The translations under genes were made by a program, and so were the position numbers. A stretch of DNA of 64,000 nucleotides from Rhodoplanes sp. Z2-YC6860 (GTDB lineage Bacteria > Pseudomonadota > Alphaproteobacteria > Rhizobiales > Xanthobacteraceae). Under the pieces are notes generated by a model. The model was not told the origin of the DNA. It was given only the letters and a program-made list of their open reading frames with translations, and made no database searches. How positions within the stretch are numbered: the stretch's first letter is position 1; every line of letters begins with the position of its first letter. The stretch is from the NCBI RefSeq assembly GCF_001579845.1, contig NZ_CP007440.1, positions 4,548,029 through 4,612,028 of the forward strand, in the 5' to 3' direction. This document shows positions 48,809 through 52,209 of the stretch, one piece after another.

Positions 48809-49618
48809 TTACTTCTTCATCTCCGGCAACACCGGCAGCTTGTCGATGTCGCGGGCGTCGTGCTGGATGATGATCTGCGCCTTCAAATTCGCGGCGATCT
48901 TCTTGAGGCGCTCGACCGAGGCCACGGTCTGGGCGCGATCGTAGTTGAACGCCGGCGCGCCGTCCGTATCCAGGTTCTCGCGGAAGTGCACGGCATCGCC
49001 GCTGAGAATGATATTACCCGAGGCGAGCTTCACCAGCAGGGCCTGATGACCGGGCGTGTGACCCGGCGTGCGCAGCACGATCACCGAGCCATCGCCGAAC
49101 ACGTCCTTGTCGAGCGTCTGCGGCTCGACCTTGCTGTCGCCCTTGATCCAGCTCTCGAACGGTTTGAAGTTCACGCCTTCGGCAGGCTTCGGCGCCGTGA
49201 TCGCTTCCCATTCTCTCGCGCCAATCAGCAACGTCGCCTTTGGGAACGACGCCACCTGTCCGGTGTGATCGCCGTGGTAGTGGCTGATGCCGACATACTT
49301 GATCTGGTCGGGCGTGACGTTGATCTTGGCCAGCTGGTCGACAATGCTCACCTTCGGCGCCACGTTCGGCGTGGTCATGGCATGGCCGGTGTCCCACAGC
49401 AGGTATTCGTCGCCGTGCTTCACGATATAGCAGCTGTAGACGAACTGAAGCTTCAGATCAGGAAACGCATAGGTGTCCGAGAACCGCTGATTGACGGCGA
49501 TCGGCGCCTGCGGCGTACCGCAGTCGAGGCGGCCGAGCGACATGTCCGCCGCTTGGGCAGACGCTGCAAGGGTGAGAGTGCCGGCGCAGGCGGCGAGCAG
49601 GGTCAGTATCCGACGCAT
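48809..49618 (-). CDS. Secreted metallo-beta-lactamase-fold hydrolase (lactonase-like)
   Basis: The 269-residue protein has a signal peptide (hydrophobic residues about 3-24, cleavage near AQAAD) and a metallo-beta-lactamase domain. The zinc motif HYHGDHTGQ lies near residue 118. GHTPGHQALLV and LSGDAVHFREN supply further ligands, and the final ligand is in IIIQHDARDIDKLP. It resembles N-acyl homoserine lactonases of the AttM/AiiA type, but those are normally cytoplasmic, so quorum quenching is only one option. The start MRRILTLLAACAG has a GGGAGGAC site. The exported ThDP enzyme gene diverges from it across 195 bases. Confidence 0.85.
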   Translation of the reverse strand: MRRILTLLAACAGTLTLAASAQAADMSLGRLDCGTPQAPIAVNQRFSDTYAFPDLKLQFVYSCYIVKHGDEYLLWDTGHAMTTPNVAPKVSIVDQLAKINVTPDQIKYVGISHYHGDHTGQVASFPKATLLIGAREWEAITAPKPAEGVNFKPFESWIKGDSKVEPQTLDKDVFGDGSVIVLRTPGHTPGHQALLVKLASGNIILSGDAVHFRENLDTDGAPAFNYDRAQTVASVERLKKIAANLKAQIIIQHDARDIDKLPVLPEMKK

Positions 49619-49813: not shown

Positions 49814-51700
49814 ATGAAAGAGCTGATCAAGCAATATCTTGATGACGGCCTGTCGCGCCGCAAGCTGATGACCGGCTTGAGCGCGCTCGGCATGAGCAGC
49901 GTGGCGGTGAAATCCATGGCGCAGTCGCTTGCGCCGTTCGGACAGGCGGCGACTGCACCGCCCGCAGCGGTGCGCGAGATGCGCGGCACCGGCGGCGCGC
50001 TGTTCATACAGCAGCTCAAGGCCGCCGGCGTCGAATATATCTTTTTCAATCCATCGACCGGCGATTACCCGATCTTCGATGCGCTGGTCGATGAGCCCGG
50101 CATCCAGCTCATCAAGGGCATTCACGAAGGCGCCGTGATCGCCATGGCCGACGGCTATGCGCGCGCCTCGGGCAAGACCGGCGTCGTCATCGTCGCCAAC
50201 ATCGGTCTGCCCAATGCCATGACGCAGATGATCAACAGCTGGAAGGATCAGATCCCGCTGCTGGTCGCCGTCGCCTCGGTCGAGCAGGACGGGCTCGGCG
50301 GCGACATGTTCCAGGACTCCGACCACTCCGAGACGATGACGCAGCCGATCACCAAGTGGTATTGGCAGGCGCTGACCACCGCGTCGATCCCGGCGACCGT
50401 CCGGCGCGGCATGAAGTTCGCGTCGACGCCGCCCTGCGGCCCGGTGTTCCTCTCGCTGCCGACCAACGTGCTGCGCGAGCAGGCCACCGCCGGCATCTGG
50501 GATCATGCGAAGTTCGATGTGCCGATGCGCATCCGCCCCGACAAGGAGTCGGTCGAGAAGGCGGCCCGCGCGCTGATCGAAGCCAAGAATCCGATGATCA
50601 GCATCGGCGACGAACTGACCTGGTGCCGCGCCGGCAAGGAGGTCGTCGCGCTCGCCGAACTGCTCGGAATTCCGGTCGCCGGCCAATACGGCCCGCTGGG
50701 CTACTGGTCGCGGCCGTTCCCGACACGGCATCCGCTCTATATCGGGCCGCATCTGCGCGACATGCGCTATCCCGGCAAGCCCGACGTGCTGCTCAATCTC
50801 GGCAACCGCCACGGCGAGCGCAGCGCGCCCGGCACGATGCTGATCTCGATCCGGCTCGATCCGACAAGTCTGGCGCGCTCCGCGCCGGTCGATCTCGGCA
50901 TGGTGGCCGATCTGAAGCTCGCGGCGGCCGACATCGCCGATGCGGTCCGCAGCATGACGACCGAGACCCGGCGCAAAGAGATCGCCGAGGAGCGCACTGC
51001 GCGCGCCCGCGCATACAGCAGCGAGATGTGGGAGCTGCGCCAGAAGATCGCGCGTGAGAATGCCGACCGCAATCCGGTGAGCCTGGAGCGCCTTGCGCTT
51101 GAGCTCGAAGGCACGCTCGAGCGCGACACCTGTTATGTCTGCGACGTCGACTCCGGCAAGACCATGGACCCGCTGATGTCGTTCGGCGGCGACGACAAGC
51201 AGTACATCGGCACGAGCCCGAGCATTCTCGGCTGGGGCATGGCTGCGGCCTTCGGCGTCAAGCTCGCCAGGCCCGATCTGCCAGTGATTTCCATCGTGGG
51301 CGACGGCAGTTTCTGCTTCAGCGGTCCGCAGCCGTTGTGGAGTCAGGCGCGTTACAAGGCGCCGGTGCTCAACATCGTGCTGAACAACCACAGCTACAAC
51401 AACGAGCGCAACCGCATCTGGCACTATGGCGGCCGCCAGTTCCAGACCGGACGCGACATGACCTGCTATCTCGGCAATCCGGACATCGACTACGCCAAGT
51501 CGGCGCAAGCGTTCGGCGTTGACGGCGAGGTCGTGAAAGAGCCCGGCGCGCTCAAGGACGCGGTCGCGCGCGGCAGGCGCGCAGTCGCGGAGGGCAGGCC
51601 GTATCTCCTCGATATCCACACGTATCGCGACGGCATCGGCGCGGTGTCGACGTGGCATCCGCCATACTCCGTGGCCGACAAGCGCACGAGGAAAGTCTGA
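49814..51700 (+). CDS. ThDP-dependent enzyme (acetolactate synthase / benzoylformate decarboxylase fold) with Tat signal
   Basis: The 628-residue enzyme has all three domains of the family. The Pyr domain (about 60-230) has the catalytic Glu105 in KGIHEGAVIAMADGYARA. The middle domain is at about 240-390. The ThDP-binding PP domain (about 430-600) carries the motif from GDGSFCFSGPQPLW (near 495) to VLNNHSYNN. Unusually, a twin-arginine signal starts it (LSRRKLMTGLSALG, Arg15-Arg16, then a hydrophobic stretch), so export as a folded holoenzyme is likely. The start has a GGGAGGACG site. A c-heme-motif protein follows with overlapping TGATG. A 2-oxo acid or acyloin is the likely substrate class; the exact compound is unknown. 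Confidence 0.85.
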   Translation: MKELIKQYLDDGLSRRKLMTGLSALGMSSVAVKSMAQSLAPFGQAATAPPAAVREMRGTGGALFIQQLKAAGVEYIFFNPSTGDYPIFDALVDEPGIQLIKGIHEGAVIAMADGYARASGKTGVVIVANIGLPNAMTQMINSWKDQIPLLVAVASVEQDGLGGDMFQDSDHSETMTQPITKWYWQALTTASIPATVRRGMKFASTPPCGPVFLSLPTNVLREQATAGIWDHAKFDVPMRIRPDKESVEKAARALIEAKNPMISIGDELTWCRAGKEVVALAELLGIPVAGQYGPLGYWSRPFPTRHPLYIGPHLRDMRYPGKPDVLLNLGNRHGERSAPGTMLISIRLDPTSLARSAPVDLGMVADLKLAAADIADAVRSMTTETRRKEIAEERTARARAYSSEMWELRQKIARENADRNPVSLERLALELEGTLERDTCYVCDVDSGKTMDPLMSFGGDDKQYIGTSPSILGWGMAAAFGVKLARPDLPVISIVGDGSFCFSGPQPLWSQARYKAPVLNIVLNNHSYNNERNRIWHYGGRQFQTGRDMTCYLGNPDIDYAKSAQAFGVDGEVVKEPGALKDAVARGRRAVAEGRPYLLDIHTYRDGIGAVSTWHPPYSVADKRTRKV

Positions 51701-52209
51701 TGCGGCGTATCGTGCTTTTGGCAGCCGTCTTTGCCGCGTCTGCGGTTGCGACGTCCGCGCGAGCGCAGAACGCGCCAGCGCTGCCGGCCGGCGATGGCCG
51801 CGACATCGTCGCGGTCGCCTGCACGCAATGCCATGCGCTGACGCCGCTCGTCGGCATGCGTGATGGGCCGAACGGATGGAAGCGCCATGTCTACAATATG
51901 GTGCTCCGCGGCGCGCAGCTTCCGCCACGCGACGTCGAAACCGTGCTCGCATATCTCAACACCAACTTCGGCCCGGGACAGTCGCTGCCACCCGCAAAGC
52001 CGGTCACGCTTCCGGCGGGCGCCGGCAAGGAGCTGGTCGAAACGCGCTGCACGCTCTGCCACGACCTCGAGCGCGTCACCGCGGCCAAGCGCTCAAAGCG
52101 CGACTGGCCCGGCGTCGTCGCCAACATGTTCGATCGGTTCGGACTTTCGGCGCCGGACGAGGCCAGCGCGATCTCGGGCTATCTCGCGGCGAACTATGGC
52201 AGCGACTGA
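51700..52209 (+). CDS. Exported cytochrome c-like protein with two CxxCH motifs
   Basis: This 169-residue protein has a signal peptide (residues 1-22, cleavage near ARAQ) and two heme-binding motifs, CTQCH at 41-45 and CTLCH at 117-121. It thus looks like two small c-type domains or a diheme cytochrome. Each motif is preceded by a similar helix (GDGRDIVAVA, GAGKELVETR). Distal methionine ligands are not obvious, though MRDGPNGW and VVANMFDRFG offer candidates. It is translationally coupled to the ThDP enzyme gene (TGATG) and converges on folE 4 bases away. It probably accepts electrons from the partner enzyme in the periplasm; this is inference from gene order and export signals. Confidence 0.85.
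   Translation: MRRIVLLAAVFAASAVATSARAQNAPALPAGDGRDIVAVACTQCHALTPLVGMRDGPNGWKRHVYNMVLRGAQLPPRDVETVLAYLNTNFGPGQSLPPAKPVTLPAGAGKELVETRCTLCHDLERVTAAKRSKRDWPGVVANMFDRFGLSAPDEASAISGYLAANYGSD

Follow-up and report, generated by a model that had tools for sequence, protein, structure and literature searches.

We found that the window (the whole stretch of 64,000 nucleotides from the Rhodoplanes sp. Z2-YC6860 genome that was analyzed) contains two overlapping genes, one coding for a ThDP-dependent enzyme with a twin-arginine leader and the other for a diheme c-type cytochrome. The ThDP enzyme is probably periplasmic and functionally tied to the cytochrome. Our leading reading, to which we give about an even chance, is that electrons would pass directly from ThDP to heme, and we would say the same of the proposal that the two genes constitute a minimal periplasmic oxidoreductase.

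The first gene (49814 to 51700 on the forward strand, with its ATG at 49814 and its TGA at 51700) codes for a protein of 628 aa with the acetolactate synthase/benzoylformate decarboxylase fold. Its SRRKL leader, MKELIKQYLDDGLSRRKLMTGLSALGMSSVAVKSMAQSLAPF (49814 to 49939, forward strand), displays a twin-arginine pattern, with Arg15-Arg16 situated in GLSRRKLMTGLSALGMSS, together with a modestly hydrophobic stretch, but lacks a clear A-x-A cleavage site. The expected catalytic glutamate, Glu105 (codon at 50126 to 50128, forward strand), which we take to be the residue that activates the ThDP aminopyrimidine, lies within GIHEGAVIAMADGY. The second gene (51700 to 52209, forward strand, with its ATG at 51700 and its TGA at 52209) codes for an exported diheme c-type cytochrome of 169 aa made up of two tandem SorB-like monoheme domains, with heme motifs CTQCH (51820 to 51834, forward strand) and CTLCH (52048 to 52062, forward strand) and an N terminus, MRRIVLLAAVFAASAVATSARAQ, that by eye resembles a Sec signal peptide. 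The two genes meet at a TGATG junction and overlap by one base, position 51700 being common to both. The first-pass annotation had described a complete ThDP enzyme with Arg15-Arg16 and Glu105, and the frame, the Pfam domains and the residues all agree with it; the overlap that it reported with a signal-peptide protein carrying CTQCH and CTLCH is likewise borne out by the one-base overlap and the presence of both motifs. Among the 55 genes picked in the window, one other has a CxxCH, a chance motif in a gene that we named by eye as dihydrolipoyl dehydrogenase-like. Scans for promoters and for terminators each returned 0 sites.

Two further features of this region deserve mention. Upstream of the pair and divergent from it lies a gene for a metallo-β-lactamase-fold hydrolase (48809 to 49618, reverse strand) with an N terminus that by eye is signal-like; the AHL-lactonase models are the nearest to it, but its scores fall below their cutoffs, and the gene is absent beside the orthologous ThDP-cytochrome pairs. 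The C terminus of the ThDP family (51640 to 51697 in the window) bears a common signature of the form S-x-W-x-P-x-x-S ... R-x-R-x-V.

Profile searches with the ThDP enzyme against Pfam recovered TPP_enzyme_N (96.3 bits), TPP_enzyme_M (55.0 bits) and TPP_enzyme_C (91.6 bits), in that order and each above its gathering score. It shares with benzoylformate decarboxylase and acetolactate synthase this three-domain architecture (PF02776-PF00205-PF02775), the catalytic glutamate and the GDG...NN cofactor motif, which is intact (GDGSF at 496 to 500 and NN at 524 to 525), but is set apart from both by its twin-arginine leader and its cytochrome gene partner. Against NCBIfam, it scored below the cutoff for all 25 families listed of the 59 matched, and we rejected its assignment both as a plain benzoylformate decarboxylase (NF005485, 227.3 bits versus a cutoff of 493) and as an acetolactate synthase large subunit (TIGR00118, 199.5 bits versus a cutoff of 538.35). 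Among the 60 PDB sequence matches listed, the first is BbmA and most are benzoylformate decarboxylases; the window protein is without a histidine at the position aligned to the active-site His70 of benzoylformate decarboxylase. A fusion of a ThDP enzyme to a cytochrome, which would have been a decisive link, was found in none of the 122 distinct ThDP frames, the only CxxCH among them (L007) being situated in an over-long frame.

With two CxxCH motifs and a leader recognized by eye, the partner protein is a c-type cytochrome, and its modeled fold is nearest to that of SorB, the cytochrome of the periplasmic sulfite dehydrogenase. Its score against the SorB family NF052246 is 50.4 bits, below the cutoff of 93, and a SorAB system was rejected on this ground and on the absence of a molybdenum subunit from the frames read by eye beside the window pair. 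Unlike in the SorAB sulfite dehydrogenase, the neighbor is a ThDP enzyme instead of a molybdenum enzyme, and there are two heme domains; unlike the heme domains in the alpha subunit of quinohemoprotein amine dehydrogenase (PF09098), this is a small free-standing cytochrome from which the remainder of that dehydrogenase is absent. Across 17 cytochrome rows, the first heme domain retains an invariant CxxCH, Trp60, Met67 and Arg70-Gly71, a pattern of conservation that makes Met67 a possible axial heme ligand. In the Acidobacteriota partner cytochromes, the heme domain occurs once, twice or three times. Single members are fused to a metallo-β-lactamase domain (L170, 3745 to 4740, reverse strand) or to a helix-hairpin-helix domain (L169, 4314 to 4880, reverse strand), and that of L173 (2922 to 3449, forward strand) by eye has a tail of similar kind.

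The Rhodoplanes genome, a single contig of 8.19 Mb, was the source for counts of ThDP genes of the same fold. TPP_enzyme_N matched 33 frames, of which 3 frames of 199 to 221 aa were left out, giving 30 loci; a twin-arginine leader is present in three of these, namely, the window gene, P0009 (L038) and P0010 (L039), with L074 and L087, which also matched the Tat pattern, classed as non-Tat (an over-long frame and an internal RR without a leader). Taking as a neighbor a CxxCH gene that starts no more than 350 nt downstream, we observed a cytochrome c gene directly after all three Tat-led genes and a CxxCH gene after none of the other 27, which argues against chance adjacency; the corresponding Fisher p value of 2.5e-4 treats the paralogues P0009 and P0010 as more independent than they are. 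Both of these have monoheme proteins of the CBB3/cytochrome c Pfam families as partners, unlike the window gene with its SorB/QHNDH-like diheme protein.

When 66 ThDP proteins were placed in a tree, with the fragment L014 left out and L042 and L070 assigned as Tat by hand, the Tat-bearing rows split into clade A, which comprises the window protein, those from Acidobacteria and L041 and has L092 as its nearest non-Tat row, and clade B, with P0009 and P0010, which is placed among non-Tat genes. The pairing of a Tat-led ThDP gene with a cytochrome gene noticed in the first-pass annotation was found again in a second, separate ThDP family. Forcing all Tat rows together made the tree 122 log-likelihood units worse (AU p 1.1e-5); since the AU test rejects a single Tat clade, the simplest account is that the design has two or more origins. 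A second tree with the leaders cut off, built by a quick method on a subset of the rows and including a control, L136, that was taken in the wrong frame and had a very long branch, again forced at least two changes. A single gain followed by later losses is conceivable but less simple, and clades A and B also have different cytochrome families. The second tree also hints at a third lineage, L217/L218, whose placement among long branches is unsure; in these two loci the cytochrome gene is the second one downstream, and in L217 a gene for a PQQ-cytochrome protein comes after it.

A scan of genome contigs with the window enzyme recovered nine loci, six from alphaproteobacterial MAGs (71 to 78% identity, five of them titled Xanthobacteraceae) and three from Acidobacteria (55 to 69% identity), the last of which is a 42-residue fragment. 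The diheme gene lies directly downstream in five of the six alphaproteobacterial loci, and the sixth (L013) breaks off inside the ThDP gene; the two fuller loci from Acidobacteria have the leader but no adjacent heme gene. Within its own family, the window enzyme matched 7 of 391 genomes at 1e-120, its own genome counted, and the window cytochrome matched 12 of 382 at 1e-15, with eight matches at full length and four to a single domain. Six of the eight full-length cytochromes are paired with a ThDP gene. The other two are in G175, where about 120 bases or less separate the cytochrome from a contig end and a different contig stops partway through the ThDP gene, and in G021, where the diheme cytochrome frame (L227, 291 to 1547, reverse strand) stands beside a ThDP remnant with one 65-aa frame still recognizable. 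These six pairs, together with the contexts in G175 and G021, show that the diheme cytochrome tracks the enzyme closely. The four single-domain homologues have no ThDP gene within the stretch fetched, and the ThDP homologue L037/L041 (39% identity) has no adjacent heme gene. Spread of the window family via sequenced plasmids was rejected for want of a match at 1e-60. Phylum-wide searches matched the genome's own copy alone (1 of 398 genomes at 1e-110 and 1 of 299 at 1e-120), so that at these thresholds the range beyond Xanthobacteraceae and Acidobacteriota is thinly sampled.

Clade B is more uniform in its organization. P0009 matched 20 of 149 genomes of its own family at 1e-150, yielding 27 chromosomal loci, two of them from the Rhodoplanes genome itself, and every one of the 27 has a Tat leader and a homologous cytochrome gene downstream on the same strand. 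Plasmid records were matched as well, 15 by P0009 and 21 by P0010; of the three fetched (H1, H2 and H5), the relatives from Caballeronia zhejiangensis and Novosphingobium sp. KACC 22771 possess both the leader and the cytochrome, and that from Phyllobacterium (38% identity) possesses neither. The Caballeronia plasmid pair (L042, 1 to 10468) is found near a cluster of genes coding for a Rieske dioxygenase, PdxA, an MFS transporter and a porin, a neighborhood that hints at aromatic-acid metabolism. Clustering of clade B neighborhoods revealed no third common gene, only scattered receptors (cluster c2, 9 loci), which are TctC/Bug-like by eye, and smaller clusters; the gene picking behind this clustering overlooked the cytochrome at several clade B loci where the locus-by-locus counts did detect it.

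In Acidobacteriota, the window family matched 14 of the 247 genomes sampled at 1e-110, including the genome of L015, whose seven clade A genes comprise six in which the leader can be seen and one truncated by its contig. Seven clade A ThDP genes in one Acidobacteria genome (L101 to L107, genome G777), of which two are tandem neighbors on contig C356, represent an expansion. The Arg-Arg leader is visible in 30 of the 31 Acidobacteriota loci, counting L116, L117 and L128, where Arg-Arg is visible in the alignment. At 13 of the 31, a same-strand gene no more than 300 nt away codes for a cytochrome of the window's family (6 upstream and 7 downstream), and some other CxxCH gene is present upstream at L130 and at L131, that of L131 being outside the window's cytochrome family, which brings the loci with some adjacent heme gene to 15; the 16 with none include L107 and L133, where a contig end truncates one flank. 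Non-Tat ThDP controls from the same genomes (30 loci reduced to 22 frames of >450 aa and, after removal of 5 Tat-family repeats, to 17) had a heme neighbor in 0 of 17 cases. Because these controls had about 300 nt upstream, only the downstream comparison is fair, and on that side alone the difference is 7 of 31 versus 0 of 17 (Fisher 0.036). The loss of adjacency that the first-pass annotation named as a refutation is seen in part only: adjacency is kept in the loci from Proteobacteria, in both the window orthologues and clade B, and is frequent rather than general in Acidobacteriota.

The alignment of the window family retains Arg-Arg in all 35 rows that reach the N terminus, and the N-terminal extension, whose usual absence from homologues would have counted against export, is the rule within the family. 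Profile models are less uniform in their response: with E values of up to 1 allowed, neither TIGR01409 nor PF10518 matched the window leader, and among the eight clade A leaders tested, one (L015) exceeds the TIGR01409 cutoff and none that of PF10518. The leaders of P0009 and P0010 both pass TIGR01409, and the hydrophobic stretch of the window leader is weaker than theirs. On balance, we consider the enzyme to be probably exported.

In our leading reading, the ThDP enzyme would fold around its cofactor in the cytoplasm and leave, already folded, via the Tat pathway. In the periplasm, the ThDP would be added to a 2-oxo acid, an aldehyde or an acyloin, and the resulting low-potential carbanion/enamine would be oxidized by the SorB-like diheme cytochrome c in two one-electron steps; the acyl-ThDP would then be hydrolyzed to a carboxylic acid, and the cytochrome would hand the electrons on to the respiratory chain. 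What the computation establishes is the intact ThDP motifs, the conserved Arg-Arg leader, a cytochrome with the fold of an enzyme subunit, the conserved pairing and the existence of two separate Tat groups with different cytochrome families. Flavin-free, direct transfer from ThDP to heme and the class of substrate, with a 2-oxo acid as the candidate, are what we infer. The conserved leader and pairing support the export and coupling parts of the original proposal of a periplasmic ThDP enzyme that reduces the cytochrome; against it stand the one passing leader out of eight, the missing heme gene at 16 of 31 Acidobacteriota loci and at L037/L041, the four single-domain cytochromes and the lack of any fusion.

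A further difficulty for direct transfer is that other dehydrogenases occur near some relatives, and PQQ, GMC or molybdenum enzymes among them could be alternative electron donors to the cytochrome. A scan with six representative queries covered the stretches fetched at 35 loci of clade A, 29 of clade B and 2 of clade C, over unequal lengths such that distant or far-off dehydrogenases may escape; it detected a PQQ, GMC, molybdenum or flavocytochrome-type protein at 10, 1 and 1 of these loci, respectively. The proteins detected include molybdenum subunits on the opposite strand near L041 and L183, PQQ proteins at L165 to L167, GMC oxidoreductases at L171, L172 and L178 and FAD proteins with CxxCH motifs at L179 and L216. 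In clade B, L190 (208 to 5463, reverse strand) has on one strand a Tat-led ThDP enzyme, a monoheme cytochrome, a 2Fe-2S subunit and a molybdenum subunit, the last with an Arg-Arg leader by eye, which suggests a periplasmic module of a decarboxylase and an aldehyde dehydrogenase. Such a gene run fits the alternative that the exported enzyme is a lyase or decarboxylase and not redox-active: it would decarboxylate a 2-oxo acid or yield an aldehyde by cleaving an acyloin, with a distinct periplasmic dehydrogenase of the molybdenum, PQQ or GMC type oxidizing the product or its precursor and reducing the cytochrome. The prevalence of benzoylformate decarboxylases among the PDB matches is in keeping with this alternative, as are the dehydrogenase-type genes at the loci counted above. 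Yet it leaves unexplained a dedicated cytochrome that abuts the ThDP gene, and 28 of the 29 clade B loci, as well as the window orthologues L009 to L012, L014 and L040, have the cytochrome with no such dehydrogenase in the fetched stretch. With just one clade B locus showing an extra dehydrogenase by the scan, what recurs in that clade is the pair as such, and we consider the lyase alternative possible but rather unlikely.

The remaining two alternatives appear improbable to us, each to a similar degree. PoxB (pyruvate oxidase/pyruvate:quinone oxidoreductase) is a ThDP enzyme of the same fold that oxidizes a 2-oxo acid and passes the electrons to respiration, acting at the cytosolic face with FAD and quinone, and the window protein might be a Tat-exported enzyme of this kind in which a bound FAD relays electrons to the cytochrome. 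FAD enzymes do occur within the same three-domain fold, flavoproteins are often exported by Tat, and the central domain of the window enzyme is a significant Pfam match; but the GGG and RFDDR motifs of the genome's own acetolactate synthase-like L090, to which we ascribe a role in FAD binding, are unconserved in clade A, P0009 and P0010, and the enzyme further differs from PoxB in its Tat-type leader and its cytochrome neighbor. Alternatively, the enzyme might not be exported at all, the Arg-Arg leader serving to target it to the membrane or a complex and the cytochrome gene being a merely co-regulated neighbor. The poor response of the clade A leaders, including that of the window, to the Tat models and the unclear cleavage site would be compatible with this, but the passing leaders of P0009 and P0010 occur with the same gene pairing, and L015, from the window's own family, passes as well, against a background of invariant Arg-Arg.

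To our knowledge, a cytosolic location is the accepted view for ThDP enzymes of this fold, for which flavin, lipoamide or iron-sulfur clusters are the redox partners described. Oxidation of 2-oxo acids by ThDP enzymes is already known; what would be new here is the compartment, the periplasm, and the electron acceptor, a cytochrome. In line with the first-pass remark that no described system has this combination, no Tat-exported or cytochrome-coupled ThDP enzyme was among the literature matches listed, a search whose scope lay outside preprints and most subscription papers. Automatic annotation conceals the system behind generic names, as in the Caballeronia record, where the two genes are labeled "thiamine pyrophosphate-binding protein" and "c-type cytochrome."

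More broadly, some soil bacteria appear to export a normally intracellular vitamin B1-dependent enzyme to the space between their membranes, where a small heme protein encoded alongside could serve as its electron carrier. That the pairing seemingly arose more than once suggests a hitherto undescribed extracytoplasmic route for the oxidation of carbon compounds. We put at somewhat below even the chances of the most general form of this proposal: that these are flavin-free periplasmic ThDP oxidoreductases, apparently of at least two origins, expanded in some Acidobacteriota, which deliver electrons directly to a dedicated cytochrome c and oxidize 2-oxo acids, aldehydes or acyloins that have not been imported. 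If true, thiamine chemistry would gain both a compartment and an electron acceptor, ThDP would be carried across the membrane within an already folded protein, and Alphaproteobacteria and Acidobacteriota would possess a testable route by which 2-oxo acids or aldehydes are oxidized outside the cytoplasm.
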